NCBI GenBank assembly: GCA_003554965.1 | Contig: PWHR01000037.1 | Span: 62,001 to 126,000, forward strand | Origin: Thermoplasmata archaeon | Lineage (GTDB): Archaea; Thermoplasmatota; Thermoplasmata; Halarchaeoplasmatales; Halarchaeoplasmataceae | Direction: 5' to 3' | DNA: 64,000 bases | In this document: positions 2,715-10,100 of the stretch, in pieces | Numbering within the stretch: position 1 is the stretch's first letter | Layout: every line of letters starts with the position of its first letter | Position numbers and translations under genes: made by a program | The notes under the pieces: generated by a model | Told to the model about the DNA's origin: nothing | Seen by the model: only the letters and a program-made list of their open reading frames with translations | The model's database searches: none

Positions 2715-3238
2715 GAAAAGATATCAGGCTATGCGGTAAAGGTGGCCAGGGTATAATGCTTTCCGGCTTCGTGCTTGGAAAAGCCGCAAGCGTTTTCCAT
2801 GATTACAACGCGGTCCAGATGCAGAGTTACGGACCCGAAGCGAGAGGTGGCGCTGCACGCTCTGAAGTCGTCATTTCCGATGAAGAAATAGGCTACTGTG
2901 GTCTTTATCAAGCGGACTACATGATGGTGATGTCTCAGGAGGCCTATAATAAGTACAATGAAGACCTTGCCGATGACGCGGTTCTTCTACTTGACGATGA
3001 TCTCGTAACAGAAGTGGAGCACGATTATATCGGTGTTCCCTGTACTGCGATAGCTGAGGATATAGGGGCGAAGATCGTAGCTAACATTGTAATGCTAGGA
3101 GCCTTCAACGAAGCGGGTGATCTGGTACCTCATGATTCCTTGGAGAAGTCGGTAGAGGACAGTGTGCCTTCGAAATTCAAGGACCTGAACTTGAAGGCGC
3201 TGAACAGAGGGGTTGAAAAGGCTAAGGAAAAGATTTGA
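2711..3238 (+). CDS. korC: 2-oxoacid:ferredoxin oxidoreductase gamma subunit
   Basis: LCGKGGQGIMLSGFVLGKAA, QSYGPEARGGAARSEVVIS; 4-nt overlap with korB. Confidence 0.88.
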   Translation: MRKDIRLCGKGGQGIMLSGFVLGKAASVFHDYNAVQMQSYGPEARGGAARSEVVISDEEIGYCGLYQADYMMVMSQEAYNKYNEDLADDAVLLLDDDLVTEVEHDYIGVPCTAIAEDIGAKIVANIVMLGAFNEAGDLVPHDSLEKSVEDSVPSKFKDLNLKALNRGVEKAKEKI

Positions 3239-3500
3239 TTGTCCCAACGAATAGTATCCTACTTGAAGAATACAGTGCCGGTTATTCTCTTGGTAGTTAA
3301 TAGTTATAGCGATTTTAAACGAGCTGCGCTTGTTGGGTTGCGAGTTTTTCAAACCCAGCTTTACTTTCTAAAATTTTTTCCACTCTACTGCTATAAAGAT
3401 TCGGATCGTCAGATGATGATTATTTAAATATTCCGCTTTCTTTAGACCAAAGATATATTTATATGTCTTATCTTTCCCTCTCTGCGAGGTGAAAAGCAAA

Positions 3501-4079
3501 ATGGAAAAAATAAAAAATGTCGGTTACGGAATTGTGTTCGGACTAGCGATCTTAGCTCTACTAGCTATGGGAACTACGGGGACAATAGAAACCGCATCTG
3601 CCGCAGAAGAGATCGAGGAAGAAAGTCCAGATAGTGTATACATGGGTTCGGCTGATTGGGAGAAACACAATGAAGAATCAGGTGCATATGCGATATCAGT
3701 AGGAGCTAAAGGAGTTGAAGTGGGTTTTGAGTATTCTTGGGAAGACGGTCACGGCGCCGCAGTAGGCATGGCGATGAGAGGATATCAAGACCATGGAAAC
3801 GGTGAGTTTGATTGGGTAACAACCGCTGAAGGTTACAGAACCGGGGACTCTACGGGAACTTGGCAGAGTGACCATTTTTGGACGGTAATAGCTACCGATG
3901 TCTGGCATGAGATCTCTGACTCTGGGGAATGGGTACAACATGAATTCGAGCTCCACTATCTGGTTGAACATGAAAGAGACAGATTCTGGGGAGGTACAGA
4001 GTATAACTACCATAACACACACATATATGGTGGTAATCCGAACGCGCCGCCCACAATCACTGTATGGATAATGGATTGA
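3501..4079 (+). CDS. Secreted protein of unknown function, first gene of an ABC-transporter operon
   Basis: Signal peptide (MEKIKNVGYGIVFGLAILALLAMGTTGTIETASA), no Cys, Trp/His/Gly-rich mature part; GAGGTG RBS 5' of ATG 3501 (ORF track begins at GTG 3489); TATA-like atatatttatat at ~3452. Confidence 0.75.
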   Translation: MEKIKNVGYGIVFGLAILALLAMGTTGTIETASAAEEIEEESPDSVYMGSADWEKHNEESGAYAISVGAKGVEVGFEYSWEDGHGAAVGMAMRGYQDHGNGEFDWVTTAEGYRTGDSTGTWQSDHFWTVIATDVWHEISDSGEWVQHEFELHYLVEHERDRFWGGTEYNYHNTHIYGGNPNAPPTITVWIMD

Positions 4080-4099
4080 TCAAGAGGTGGAGAATATCC

Positions 4100-5296
4100 A
4101 TGAAAATACCCAAAACTTTTCTCCTATTTTTTATTCTTATTATGCTTATAATGCCTATTTCTAGTTTGGGATTGGTATCATCTTCAGAAGATGTAGCTAT
4201 GGATAATCCCTATGGGGAGGGAAGATGGAGATTAAAGAATGCGGGAATCCAAATTCTTTATAATCACGAAGAAGAGGATTATGATTATTTGGTTAAGAAT
4301 TCCAGCTTTTCAACCAATAAAATATCTATAGAGACCATTGAAGAAAGTCAGAATCACGTAGAAGTTTTGTTAAATTTAGAGATAGGGTTTGTGACCTCTT
4401 TAGACCGTTCGGATTACGAAGAGCATTTAGAAGAGGGTCCTATTGATGAAGAGTTACTAGATGCGGTTCATATCGGGTATGATATGTATATAGATAAAGA
4501 TGAGGCAGAGCTTTTAGATGATGACGAAGGATGGTTGGTAAAAGAAGAAGATGTAAAAAGATATAGATTAGAAAAAGATGATGAAAAGATAAATATTTAT
4601 TCGATCCAGTTTGAAGAAAGGATCGATTTCGATTACACTGAGTTGAGATTCTAGATTGATAAGGAAAGCAACGATGCGACCCTTGTTGAAGAGGATCATA
4701 GTGAGAAGGGAGCAAGGTTGGGATTTTTCCCCTTTCTAGGGTTTTTAGAAGAAAACCCCTATGAGAACACCTACGATTATATATTTGGAGGAGAAACAAA
4801 TTCTGTAAGCAAATCAGCAGATTGGATTATTTCCTATCCCGATCCTGAAGATTTTCCTGATGAACCTCATGACAACGATGAGGATTTTGTCCAACCCGAC
4901 ATGATTGAAAAAAATATAGGGTCTACATATTTTTTGAATACAGAAAAAAGGATGACGATCGATAGAGAAAAAGTAATGGAGGACTCTCCCGAAATTACAA
5001 GAAGAGGTCTTTCATTAAACTACAAACGGGATGGCCAAAGTCTTTATCCTGCTGACGGGGAGTTATGTCTGCCGGCAGAATTTTTCATAAGAAATACTTC
5101 AGCCGAAGAGATGGTGTATATAGATATTGATTATGAGTATAATGAGGAAGAGGCAGTCGAGTATCTACAATCTCTGCGACCAAGAGATGATGATGAAGAA
5201 GAAGCTACCTTTGATGAATATAAGTTCCTCGCTATACCCGCAGCCGTAGCCCTTATAGGTGGATATCTCGCTTACAAGAACAAGAAAGGAGGTTAA
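4100..5296 (+). pseudogene. Extracytoplasmic protein with N-terminal signal peptide and C-terminal TM anchor, interrupted by in-frame TAG at 4652-4654 (ORFs 4064..4654 and 4718..5296 are the same frame)
   Basis: Frame is open from 4100 to 5296 apart from one TAG; signal sequence KTFLLFFILIMLIMPISSLGLV in part 1, TM FLAIPAAVALIGGYLAYKNKKGG in part 2. Confidence 0.6.
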
Positions 5297-5302
5297 AGTT
5301 GA

Positions 5303-6145
5303 GTGTTTAGTAGGGATGGATTGATCTACAAGTTTTTTTCTCATAACAAATACGTTCTTGCAGTTGTGATTATTGCTCCTCTTCTTCTTTACTTCGTTTT
5401 TGGTACCTCCTTTTATGGATATCTTGACGACATCGGTGAAGAAGAATTGAGAGGATACGATCTAGACAAAGACTACGATGGTGATATGACCTTCTTCGAC
5501 GATGAACCTATAGATGAGGACGAGTATGAAAAGGTAAATCCCTACGGAGGGGAAGAAAATATTTCTAAGATGCACCAGTACAGCTATGAAGAATCTTTTT
5601 TTCCTTCGCTGATCTCTTTAGCAAGTGTATCTTTTATCGTTGGAGCGGTGATTTCCTCACTGTCCTGGGGACGAATGGCGAGCGATGGTTCAATAGTATA
5701 TCCTATTTTATTAAAGTCCTCTAGGACCAAAAGTTTTATGGAGTTATTTTTGTTACCTCTCGTGTTCATATTGTTGATATCCGTTTTTGCATCTCTATTG
5801 GTAACTTCAGAAGTTTTCGTTCCCTTCCTCGAGATCGGTTTCCGATCAGTATTTTTCTATTCTTTATTGACGGTGCTCGGAACCATGTTCGGTGGTTACA
5901 CAATAGCCCTCTTAATTTCTCTGATCTCTAGAGATTCCTTTCTTCCAATTTTCGGTTCCCTTCTTTTCGTCGGAGGAGTTAATCTTTGGCGTGAAAGATT
6001 TCACATATTATCACCGAGTAGAGGATTGGTCACCCATCATTATTTCGATCACCCGATAGAGAATGAAGTATATTATGGTATTTTGATCATAATCGCTGCA
6101 TTCATACTATCCTACTTTTTCTTCAAAAGAGGTGATTTTTATTAA
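5303..6145 (+). CDS. ABC-2-like multi-pass membrane permease with acidic extracellular loop
   Basis: Six or so hydrophobic segments, N-terminal TM then acidic loop YLDDIGEEELRGYDLDKDYDGD; adjacent to ABC ATPase. Confidence 0.65.
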   Translation: MFSRDGLIYKFFSHNKYVLAVVIIAPLLLYFVFGTSFYGYLDDIGEEELRGYDLDKDYDGDMTFFDDEPIDEDEYEKVNPYGGEENISKMHQYSYEESFFPSLISLASVSFIVGAVISSLSWGRMASDGSIVYPILLKSSRTKSFMELFLLPLVFILLISVFASLLVTSEVFVPFLEIGFRSVFFYSLLTVLGTMFGGYTIALLISLISRDSFLPIFGSLLFVGGVNLWRERFHILSPSRGLVTHHYFDHPIENEVYYGILIIIAAFILSYFFFKRGDFY

Positions 6146-6677
6146 AGATAAGATCCTTTTATCAGTCGTTATCTCATTGCTGTTATCTTCAACGATCATC
6201 ACTCTGCAAAGAAGTGAAGCTGTGGAAGTCTTCGATACAAATTTTGGAGCGGACAGTAGAAAGCACTGGCAGGATAGTAGCCCATATATAAGGCATGATC
6301 ATGAGCACGATGAAAATCTTACTCAGGGGTATTACAGGGGTTCCTCTCAATATGGCCTTGAACCTGGAAGCTACAATATAGAAGTCGATCCAGTTGGTGA
6401 AAACGTTACACTTTATCTGATAGATGGAGAAAAAACTTTAGAAAAGGAATTGAACGAATCCATAAGTTTTGAAACGGATCTTGAAACGAACACGATATGG
6501 ATCGGAATAATCATTGGGGATCCACTTACGTTTGAAGAACATACTGGTGAGGTCTTTGAGATAGAAATCGAGAAAGAGAGAGAAATTTTAGATTATCCTT
6601 TGATAATGTTATGGATATTGACATTGATAGGAGTGATTTATCTTGGAGTCGATACTTACAGCAAAAAACGTGAGTAA
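6132..6677 (+). CDS. Membrane-anchored ectodomain protein, unknown function
   Basis: N-terminal hydrophobic segment ILLSVVISLLLSSTIITL, C-terminal TM YPLIMLWILTLIGVIYLGVDTYSKKRE; overlaps both neighbours. Confidence 0.6.
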   Translation: MIFIKDKILLSVVISLLLSSTIITLQRSEAVEVFDTNFGADSRKHWQDSSPYIRHDHEHDENLTQGYYRGSSQYGLEPGSYNIEVDPVGENVTLYLIDGEKTLEKELNESISFETDLETNTIWIGIIIGDPLTFEEHTGEVFEIEIEKEREILDYPLIMLWILTLIGVIYLGVDTYSKKRE

Positions 6678-7461
6678 AAAGTTCGGCAAGACCGTTGCTT
6701 TAGATAACGTCTCATTTCAGATGACTGAAGGTCTCAACATGTTGTTAGGGCCAAATGGGAGCGGTAAAACTACCTTTTTGAGGATAGCATGTGGTCTTCT
6801 TAGACCAGATGAGGGCAAGGTAAGTATTTTTGGACATGATCCGTTTAAGGAGTATTCCGAGATAAAGGATAAAGTATCGTTCGCTCTGCAGAAACCGCAT
6901 CTTCCTCAAAACATAACCGTTAAAGATTTTTTAGAGGGGGTGAAAACGGAAAAAAACGCACGATCTTATAACAGCGCGGTTAAGGCTTTTGGACTTGAAG
7001 ATATACTGGATAAGAAATTTAAGAATCTATCAGGAGGGTTCAAGAAAAGGGTTTCGCTGGCACAAGCTTTTATCGGCAAACCGGATCTGCTCGTTGTTGA
7101 TGAACCTTTTGCTAATCTTGATATCGAAGCTAAACTACGTATTTCTGACATGATAAACAAACTTTCCAAAAGGGAGAACACTTCATTGGTAATGATAACC
7201 CACGATTTAGGTTCACTGAAACCAGACCATCTAACAATCCTTTACGCGGGAAAAACTATCCTAAGTGATTACTACGATGAACTTGGATTTGATGAGATAA
7301 AGTCATTTTACGTTAAAAAGGACGATGAAAAGTATGTTATAAATAATAGAGAAAGTCTGCATAAAAATGTAAAAAAGGGTGCGAAGATTATAGACGTTGA
7401 AAAGAGGGGCTTTGAAGACTATCTTAAAGAGAAATTTGAAAAAGAAGAAATAAAAAGATAA
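6643..7461 (+). CDS. ABC transporter ATP-binding protein
   Basis: Walker A LGPNGSGKTTF, signature NLSGGFKKRVSLAQA, Walker B LLVVDEPFANLD. Confidence 0.95.
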   Translation: MESILTAKNVSKKFGKTVALDNVSFQMTEGLNMLLGPNGSGKTTFLRIACGLLRPDEGKVSIFGHDPFKEYSEIKDKVSFALQKPHLPQNITVKDFLEGVKTEKNARSYNSAVKAFGLEDILDKKFKNLSGGFKKRVSLAQAFIGKPDLLVVDEPFANLDIEAKLRISDMINKLSKRENTSLVMITHDLGSLKPDHLTILYAGKTILSDYYDELGFDEIKSFYVKKDDEKYVINNRESLHKNVKKGAKIIDVEKRGFEDYLKEKFEKEEIKR

Positions 7462-7483
7462 TTATAACTATTATGAAGCTAGA

Positions 7484-7554
7484 TGAGGCCCCGGGCGAGG
7501 TGAAAAGCAGAATGTAACGGAAAACCGTTATATCCTGTTTTTTCCGGGCCCTCA
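7484..7554 (+). terminator. Long stem-loop downstream of ABC operon, followed by a T-rich run (terminator or structured RNA)
   Basis: TGAGGCCCCGG(7484-7494)/CCGGGCCCTCA(7544-7554) with one mismatch; GAAAAGCAG(7502-7510)/CTGTTTTTT(7535-7543); TAACGG(7515-7520)-AAAA-CCGTTA(7525-7530); then tattctttttcttcttccc. Confidence 0.5.
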
Positions 7555-7615
7555 CGTATTCTTTTTCTTCTTCCCATATTAAGACGAGTCCATTTTTATA
7601 TAACAGTTTTACTTA

Positions 7616-7735
7616 TGTCTAAAGGCGCAGACGCTATGCTAGAGATATCTCAAGGACATGGAGTATATCTAGAATAGACAGATTACTGGTGGGGACGTCA
7701 AGACCTTAGGGGGATTAGCCTACAATAGTGTAATC
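7616..7735 (+). ncRNA. Candidate structured non-coding RNA
   Basis: Abutting stems TGTCTA(7616-7621)/TAGACA(7675-7680) and GATTAC(7681-7686)/GTAATC(7730-7735); TATA-like tttttatataa upstream (~7593-7603); no ORF. Confidence 0.35.
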
Positions 7736-7802
7736 AGCAAGACAATGGAACAAAGAACAATAAATATAAAACCCTTTTTATTCATTTTTAAATCAAGAAT
7801 TG

Positions 7803-8237
7803 GTGAAAACGATCGCCCATCCACTCGATAAAAAGAAGAATGCGCTTGTATTCACTACGGTAGTGTGGATTCTAATAATTTTAGGAATCTTTACCATTGA
7901 CTTGTTGAGTTTTGATCTATCGGTTCTTATCGGTTTTCTCTTCACTCTTTTATTTTTCACTTTGGGTCATATTGTAAATAACATAACATCTACCAGGAAG
8001 ACTAATTTTCTTGGCGTTATTATTTTAACAGTGCCTTTCGCGTTGTTCTTGTATTACTTGTTTTCAATGGTCGATCTTGTTTTCTATAGTTTTTCTCTTG
8101 GAATCTTAATGATGGTGACCCTTAGGCCTGCTTTGACTGCATGTTTTGGATTATTTGAAGTTATGATGATGGAGGCGGCTGGTGGCCGCCTTGGTAGCCA
8201 AAAAAGTAATAATGTTGAAAACATAGAAGTGAGATGA
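7803..8237 (+). CDS. Multi-pass membrane protein, unknown function
   Basis: Several hydrophobic segments; TATA-like aaatataaaa upstream. Confidence 0.55.
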   Translation: MKTIAHPLDKKKNALVFTTVVWILIILGIFTIDLLSFDLSVLIGFLFTLLFFTLGHIVNNITSTRKTNFLGVIILTVPFALFLYYLFSMVDLVFYSFSLGILMMVTLRPALTACFGLFEVMMMEAAGGRLGSQKSNNVENIEVR

Positions 8238-8258
8238 TATGAAGGCAGAGGAGATATA

Positions 8259-8681
8259 ATGGGGAATGAGAGAACAAGAAAAAACATATTTATCTTTTCT
8301 TTTTTCTCTATTTTAATGATGGCTTTTACTCTTATTCAGTTCATTAGATTGGAAGGATTCTGGAGTGGCTTTTATTTTACGGCATTTTTGCTTTTTTTAA
8401 TTCTTTCCCTAGTAACCTTGTTAGGGATTAAATATAGGTGGTCATATAATAAATGTAAGTGGTCAGATAAGATAATGGGAAAAGAAAGAAAAAGAAAAAC
8501 CAAATTTATCCAGCTATTTACAAATATTTTAATGATGACCTTAACCCTCTTTCAGTTCACTATCCGGGACGGTTTTTGGAGCGGCTTTTATTTTATGATA
8601 TTTCTGATTTTTTTAATCCTTTTTCCTGTAAGCGTGTTAGAGATCATAACTGGGAAAACATATATGCTATTCCAAAATTGA
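8259..8681 (+). CDS. Membrane protein made of two tandem copies of a ~55-70 aa unit
   Basis: GNERTRKNIFIF..ILMMAFTLIQFIRLEGFWSGFYF vs GKERKRKTKFIQ..ILMMTLTLFQFTIRDGFWSGFYF. Confidence 0.65.
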   Translation: MGNERTRKNIFIFSFFSILMMAFTLIQFIRLEGFWSGFYFTAFLLFLILSLVTLLGIKYRWSYNKCKWSDKIMGKERKRKTKFIQLFTNILMMTLTLFQFTIRDGFWSGFYFMIFLIFLILFPVSVLEIITGKTYMLFQN

Positions 8682-8903
8682 TCCAAAGATGAGAAGGATG
8701 TCGGATAAAAGATAGGATTAGGTACTAAAATAATATCTGTCCCACTGAGGAGAAAGCAAGATAATAGGGATGTTGAATACTGCTAGTGGCCTTGGAAGTC
8801 TACCAAAAATTTTCCTTTTTATCCTCCCGCCCCTCGAACATCGACCAAATACTTTTATATTCTCATCCGTTCACCTAAAATCGGCTTTAGCAGAACTAGC
8901 CGG

Positions 8904-10100
8904 ATGAGACGTCCTTTGGAGGAAATCGTAATGTCGGAAATACCGGAATATGTAGGGCCCATGGCTATGGGTCTGAAGATGGGTGTGATCGTTCCAGGCA
9001 TGGATATAGTGGACGAGGTTTTCAAGTCGATCGAACGATGCAGCGATAACGGTTTGTTATATGATGGAGATGTTATCTGCATCACTGAATCCGTGGTTGC
9101 AAGGGCCCAGGATAATTATGTGACCATCGATGAGGCATCCGAAGAGATCAGGGAGAAATTGGATGTTGAAAAAGATGAGACTCTAGGTGTTGTATTTCCG
9201 ATAACCAGCAGAAATAGATTTTCGATGATCCTTCAGGCTATAGCTGAGTCTGTTTCAGAAGGAAAAGTGATCGTTCAGATGTCCTTTCCATGTGATGAAG
9301 TGGGTAATCAGTTCATCTCTCCTGAGTTCGTGGAGGAGTTAGATAAAGATGTCATCACCATGGATGATCTGAAGGGTGAAGATTTCACACATCCTATCAC
9401 CGAGGTCAACTACATAAAATTCTACAAAAATATAATAGAAGAGGTGGGTGCCGAAGCCGAGATCGTTCTTTGTAATGATCCCCTACATATTCTTATGCAT
9501 GATCCTGATGGTGTTATAGCGGCGGATATCCATACTAGAAAAAAGACTAAAGAAAAGATAACTGAGAGGTTTAAAAATTGTATAACTTTGGATGAGGTAT
9601 GTATTGAAGGTGAAACACGCTCTGAATGGGGTCTTTTGGGAAGCAATATGTCCTCTGGCGATCGTTTGAAGCTAGCTCCTAAAGATGGATACAACGTTTT
9701 AAAAGAGCTGCAGGACAGGGTGAGAGAAGAGTTGGAAGTACAAATCGAGGCGATAATCTACGGTGACGGCGCCTACAAGGATCCAACTAGCGGTATCTAT
9801 GAGTTAGCTGATCCTAGCGTGACCATAGCCTCGACGGACGGACTCAACTGCTTCCGTAGAGGTGTAAAATACAAGTACATAGCCGACCAGCATTATCACA
9901 ACGAAGGAATGGATGTTGACGAGATAGAGGAGATAATACAGGAAAAAAAGGAAGAAGGGAACAAATCCGAAGATTGTATGGAGAAGGAAGGCACCACACC
10001 TAGACAGATGGAAGACTTACTCGGCAGTCTAGCGGATCTGGTTAGCGGTTCAGCGGATGCAGGAACTCCGGTGGTATTGGTAAAAAATTTCTTAGACTGA
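8904..10100 (+). CDS. Coenzyme F420-0:L-glutamate ligase family protein (CofE-like domain)
   Basis: DGDVICITESVVARAQ..., DGYNVLKELQDRVREEL; F420_ligase-type signature recalled by similarity. Confidence 0.65.
   Translation: MRRPLEEIVMSEIPEYVGPMAMGLKMGVIVPGMDIVDEVFKSIERCSDNGLLYDGDVICITESVVARAQDNYVTIDEASEEIREKLDVEKDETLGVVFPITSRNRFSMILQAIAESVSEGKVIVQMSFPCDEVGNQFISPEFVEELDKDVITMDDLKGEDFTHPITEVNYIKFYKNIIEEVGAEAEIVLCNDPLHILMHDPDGVIAADIHTRKKTKEKITERFKNCITLDEVCIEGETRSEWGLLGSNMSSGDRLKLAPKDGYNVLKELQDRVREELEVQIEAIIYGDGAYKDPTSGIYELADPSVTIASTDGLNCFRRGVKYKYIADQHYHNEGMDVDEIEEIIQEKKEEGNKSEDCMEKEGTTPRQMEDLLGSLADLVSGSADAGTPVVLVKNFLD

Follow-up and report, generated by a model that had tools for sequence, protein, structure and literature searches.

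A conserved five-gene cassette encoding a predicted secreted protein and ABC transporter components in an uncultured Thermoplasmata archaeon

The stretch of DNA analyzed here (64,000 nucleotides, referred to as the window) derives from the draft genome G000 (2.33 Mb, 93% complete) of a member of the Thermoplasmata, which belongs to the same family as the genome carrying the best relative of the cassette described below. Five co-directional, tightly packed ORFs are located on the + strand at positions 3501–7461, 3' of genes for 2-oxoacid:ferredoxin oxidoreductase (korG). Using the general archaeal promoter consensus, a BRE/TATA-like box (CCAAAGATATATTTATATG) is predicted at about 3446–3465 (+ strand), ∼40–55 nt 5' of the ATG of the first gene, which agrees with the TATA-like box proposed in the original prediction. 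The leader and start of this gene (3484–3506, + strand) include the Shine-Dalgarno sequence GAGGTGA. The first gene, P1 (3501–4079), encodes a predicted secreted protein of 192 aa and has an ATG start, with a GTG at 3489 as a possible alternative; it is followed by P2 (4100–5296, 398 codons), a predicted surface protein with an in-frame TAG, P3 (5303–6145, 280 aa, GTG start), a predicted membrane protein, P4 (6132–6677, 181 aa, GTG start), a predicted ectodomain between two transmembrane segments, and P5 (6643–7461, 272 aa, TTG start), an ABC transporter ATPase. All five ORFs were thus present as originally predicted. P3 and P4 overlap by exactly 14 nt (6132–6145), and P4 and P5 by exactly 35 nt (6643–6677). 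A terminator-like hairpin (7481–7565, + strand; dG −36.6, z −4.3) is found 3' of the operon. Pfam, NCBIfam, PADLOC and PHROGs (the latter compared with P1–P4, the P5 ATPase being left out) recognize the ATPase alone, so that the absence of a named family for the other proteins was borne out; PADLOC gave only generic ATPase matches, and an Rfam scan of 3200–8950 gave no match.

All five genes could be identified in the same order in a genome from another genus of the same family (G014, contig JAFDTZ010000123.1, 5,952 bp). In G014, P1–P5 comprise 174, 310, 279, 179, and 158 residues, respectively, P5 being cut by the contig end, and the overlaps are the same 14 and 35 nt. The protein identities between G000 and G014 are 33% for P1, 34% for P2, 54% for P3, 53% for P4, and 70% for P5. 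Because order, orientation and overlaps are kept between genera at 33–70% protein identity, the five genes are a real conserved unit, beyond chance, in line with the operon originally proposed, and P1 co-occurs with the ABC genes in the second genome as well. As far as the two five-gene loci show, the set travels as one unit. The pN values between G000 and G014 were 0.43 for P1 and 0.46 for P2, compared with 0.30 for P3, 0.29 for P4, and 0.18 for P5; pS was near saturation, and pN was well below pS for all five genes. In a third genus (G008), a P1 gene with 41–43% identity is located at a contig end. It is followed on its 3' side by a ribosome-binding site and then by ATGATGGCAGATTATAAA, which resembles the start of P2 in G014 (MNGKDYK). 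The known copies therefore amount to two with all five genes, one of them cut inside P5, and a partial one.

When profiles of P1, P2, P3, and P4 were each searched in 399 genomes of the class, P2 and P3 were confined to G000 and G014. P1 was additionally present in G008 but nowhere else, and P4 gave two marginal matches beyond those in G000 and G014. A close relative of P5 was found only in G014 among 61 genomes. The cassette is thus rare, with an occurrence in 2–3 of the 399 class genomes and in 3 of 16 searched genomes of the family. In the congeners G002 and G003, a homolog of the gene at 8904 begins 107 and 54 bp, respectively, after korG, and these genomes represent the empty site. Compared with them, G000 carries an insertion of 5.6 kb (3239–8890, delimited by synteny, the right boundary being approximate) with a GC content of 0.378 versus 0.472 and 0.437 in the flanks. 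The insertion also carries two small membrane-protein ORFs (7800 and 8259); no integrase or transposase gene was seen in it, and no tRNA was found in it with ARAGORN. In G014, the cassette is located 3' of a DEAD-box helicase gene, and in G008 the copy is located 3' of a gene for a 609-aa protein. Since three copies occur in three contexts and the site is empty in two congeners, the cassette is accessory and probably horizontally mobile. The occupation of three sites in three genera is most simply explained by horizontal movement, the alternative being repeated loss combined with rearrangement.

P1 has a predicted signal peptide up to about residue 35 and no other hydrophobic segment, which leaves a mature protein of ∼157 aa. 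After the presumed signal, the protein contains 12% Gly, 6.4% His, 5.7% Trp and no Cys, and it is strongly acidic. A Sec-type signal peptide is present in all three P1 relatives (G000, G014, and G008). The description of P1 as a secreted, Cys-free protein rich in Trp, His and Gly thus holds for its composition and for the signal peptide, from which secretion is predicted, but freedom from Cys is not a family trait, since one Cys is present in the G008 relative. P1 matched no named family in Pfam or NCBIfam, housekeeping families included, and no PDB sequence; neither viral contigs, searched with the P1 profile, nor plasmid records yielded relatives. A structure model based on a two-sequence alignment consisted mostly of beta strands, at low confidence (pLDDT 37).

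P2 was originally described as an anchored protein with a signal peptide, a C-terminal transmembrane segment and an interrupting TAG. The N-terminal signal and the TAG could be confirmed, while a short C-terminal anchor is likely but not certain: the C-terminal tail falls below the simple 19-residue hydropathy threshold, yet it is conserved (LIGGYLAYKNKKGG/SAGAGYVAYKKKGG). The in-frame TAG at 4652–4654 corresponds to codon 185, and the frame is otherwise open to 5296. In G014, P2 has AAG (Lys) at this position, and a single A-to-T difference accounts for the TAG. Read-through by pyrrolysine incorporation was considered and rejected. A search of G000 for PylS gave only a weak match below the cut-off, of a kind also found in genomes without PylS, and without a convincing pyrrolysyl-tRNA synthetase, with TAG serving as an ordinary stop (it terminates 9 of the 37 long ORFs of the window) and with AAG in G014, the TAG is attributed to a premature stop, to polymorphism or to an error in the assembly and not to recoding. 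With P1 intact and P2 carrying a stop, P2 cannot be indispensable for immunity in G000, barring an assembly error at the stop, and P3–P5 are better immunity candidates than P2. No named family was found for P2 in Pfam or NCBIfam.

P2 is further separated from the syntenic P2 of G014 by an insert of 75 aa (residues ∼95–170; 4382–4609, + strand), which is missing from the latter. The same domain was found in 19 places in G000, copies are present in most genomes of the family, and five were found in one distant genome of the class. It is located, as clean insertions, in the outer loops of ABC-2 permeases recognized by Pfam and also in regions of surface proteins close to the C-terminal anchor, and in large membrane proteins, one of them an OppC-type permease, it is repeated in tandem, with up to about eight units per array. 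Another clean insertion is seen in a pair of permeases, of which the one on C18 has 481 aa and the one on C21, without the unit, 362 aa. The ∼70-aa consensus reads LFxLxRxEYEEYLEEGPIxEELxEAFExEGxxLxEDAELxEExxxWxIxEDxxxxYRIExxxExLxIY. Besides the copy in P2, sites in G000 include C18:5234, C18:57258, C19:61547, C22:78882, C8:48531–49124, and C8:64735, and further loci are L009, L054, and L075–L078. No relative was found in Pfam and the PDB, and the insert is, judging from its sequence, an unnamed extracellular domain of its own. Spread as a mobile DNA element was considered and rejected, as the copies are only 24–44% identical to the P2 copy at the protein level and stand in tandem in some hosts; domain shuffling appears to fit better.

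In P3, hydropathy predicts about six helices and an acidic outer loop of ∼60 residues after helix 1. A structure model from a two-sequence alignment agrees with this topology, at low confidence (pLDDT 40). No match to the Pfam ABC2_membrane families was obtained, hhalign against real ABC-2 permeases of G000 gave 0.5%, and PDB sequences and plasmid records contained no relatives; profiles of P3 and P4 found none in viral contigs. Therefore, of the original prediction of an ABC-2-like permease with an acidic outer loop, the predicted topology and loop are compatible with the sequence, membership of the family is not supported, and the term "ABC-2-like," given on topology and on coupling to the ATPase gene, is weakened. 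For P4, the proposed anchored ectodomain agrees with transmembrane segments predicted by hydropathy at both the N- and the C-terminus. P5 is indeed an ABC ATPase, with a match to Pfam ABC_tran (5e-28) and with Walker A (GPNGSGKTT), signature (LSGGFKKR) and Walker B (LLVVDEP) motifs; its best NCBIfam match is drrA (2e-38, below the cut-off), and the Pfam scan revealed no peptidase domain. DrrA/NatA-type ABC-2 transporters (PF12679 and PF12698) resemble the cassette in the type of ATPase and in the predicted topology of P3, with ∼six helices and a large outer loop following helix 1, but P3 has no ABC2_membrane match and P4 would be an extra anchored subunit.

The layout was further compared with that of lactococcin 972, using four family members from annotated records. 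The locus on plasmid pBL1 consists of lcn972, a gene for a DUF1430-type membrane protein and a gene for an ABC ATPase. Like the cassette, it combines a small, Sec-secreted, Gly/His/Trp-rich and Cys-poor protein with a membrane protein and an ABC ATPase in this order. However, mature P1 is acidic and exceeds the bacteriocin more than twofold in length, and the membrane part of the cassette is split over P2, P3, and P4, without similarity. P1 did not match the Pfam model of lactococcin 972 at E ≤ 1, and hhalign against its profile gave a probability of 1.6% over 10 columns. DUF1430 was absent from the cassette in a Pfam scan, and the similarity of P3 to the pBL1 membrane protein was not significant. 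P5 and the pBL1 ATPase are 32% identical, which is the general ABC level only, and P5 scored 99 bits with TIGR03608 against a cut-off of 255. Membership was therefore rejected, as the layout is similar but the proteins have no detectable relationship; by analogy, the cassette may work like lactococcin 972 without belonging to its family. The lactococcin 972 family acts by binding lipid II, and archaea have no peptidoglycan.

An archaeocin-like role with ABC-mediated self-protection is, tentatively, the leading guess for the function of the cassette. P1 would leave the cell via the Sec pathway, as its signal peptide suggests, and act outside the cell as an effector that either diffuses or stays bound to the surface, with P2 as a putative surface-anchored partner. 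P3, P4, and P5 would form one ABC complex, with P5 as the ATPase, P3 as the membrane channel half and P4 as an anchored outside subunit, and this complex would protect the producer in that P1, or the cargo of P1, is removed or extruded from the producer's own membrane. The model for such self-protection is provided by bacteriocin loci in which the product is secreted via Sec and an ABC transporter confers immunity. A role in competition is favored by the accessory and mobile character of the cassette, by its gene order and by the more rapid divergence of P1 and P2, although none of these proves it, and by analogy the lactococcin 972 locus, which has the same logic, counts for it as well. P1 and P2, which diverge more than P3–P5, are predicted to face outward and would carry specificity; however, faster divergence is common among secreted proteins. 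Further points against competition are that bacteriocins are typically cationic while P1 is large (∼157 aa when mature) and strongly acidic, that P2 is broken by a stop while P1 is intact, and that the copies are few. To our knowledge, no ABC operon of this layout has been described for archaeocins. The resemblance to bacteriocin or archaeocin loci noted originally extends to the accessory character and the different sites, as is often the case for bacteriocin loci, but not to homology, since neither sequence nor profile comparisons (Pfam, NCBIfam, and hhalign with lactococcin 972) linked P1 to a bacteriocin or archaeocin. Archaeocins such as halocins and sulfolobicins are likewise archaeal secreted or surface proteins, and the cassette products would share with them a possible antagonistic function, but P1 matches none of their families. 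The archaeocins described so far are restricted to Haloarchaea and Sulfolobales (PMC10105419). With four unnamed families in a compact mobile set of five genes from uncultured Thermoplasmata, the cassette is an archaeocin candidate outside these two lineages. The fuller proposal, a first antagonism cassette of the Thermoplasmata that comprises a new family of Sec-secreted acidic archaeocins, an anchored partner and dedicated three-subunit ABC self-protection and has spread horizontally between genera, is rather improbable. If it does not serve antagonism, the cassette nonetheless constitutes a defined accessory module of surface and ABC proteins with known partners.

The tight linkage of P1 and P2 to the ABC genes would also suit assembly of the cell surface, in which P1 and P2 have a structural or adhesive function and P3–P4–P5 acts as a module (motor or trafficking) for their placement or retrieval, without any antagonism. 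Models for such modules are GldA/GldFG and FtsEX. Both P2 and P4 appear to be anchored in the membrane and to expose domains on the outside, and the P2 insert occurs in many surface proteins of the family; however, such systems are usually stable within a lineage, whereas the cassette is present in only 3 of 16 family genomes and at different sites, and this explanation, while serious, is unlikely. Efflux or resistance to membrane stress, with P1 and P2 capturing a compound or peptide made by others, is consistent with the mobile accessory distribution, which suits resistance genes, and with the closeness of P5 to DrrA-type efflux ATPases. Against this, P1 is the first gene behind the sole evident promoter and is predicted to be soluble and unanchored, and resistance operons rarely begin with such a secreted protein, which makes efflux a rather doubtful explanation.

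The dedicated exporter suggested originally is very unlikely as the main role of the ABC proteins. P1 stands in a tight operon with the ABC genes in two genera, but it would need no ABC exporter, because it has its own Sec-type signal peptide, which all three P1 copies share, and the ABC protein has no peptidase domain. It is equally improbable that the locus is a decaying island without function in G000. The in-frame TAG in P2, the lower GC content and the extra small membrane ORFs of the island would suit decay, but P1, P3, P4, and P5 are intact, the overlaps are kept, pN remains far lower than pS in every gene, and the single A-to-T difference behind the TAG could be recent or an assembly error.

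Several repeats were observed in the insertion. The 18-nt sequence GAGGTGAAAAGCARAATG occurs exactly in only three places among 17 genomes, namely the P1 leader, position 7497 and the P1 start of G008. A 22-nt direct repeat at 3484 and 7495 was considered as a site of cassette excision and rejected, as the copy at 7495 is part of a hairpin repeat with another genomic copy; this copy does not appear to be an obvious attachment site. The second copy of the hairpin at 7481–7565 is located on contig C99 of G000 (L089, 1454–1534) and is 78% identical over 89 nt. The left arm of the palindromic hairpin is identical between the copies over 32 nt and includes GAGGTGAAAAGCAGAA; the ribosome-binding leader of P1 has this same sequence in G008 and, with one difference, in G000. 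The ORF at 8259–8681 encodes a 140-aa membrane protein consisting of two ∼72-aa units (140-nt direct repeat, 74% identical, spacing 216). The gene at 8904–10100, which is conserved beside korG in the congeners, encodes a 398-aa protein with partial similarity, far below the family cut-off, to CofE (coenzyme F420-0:L-glutamate ligase).
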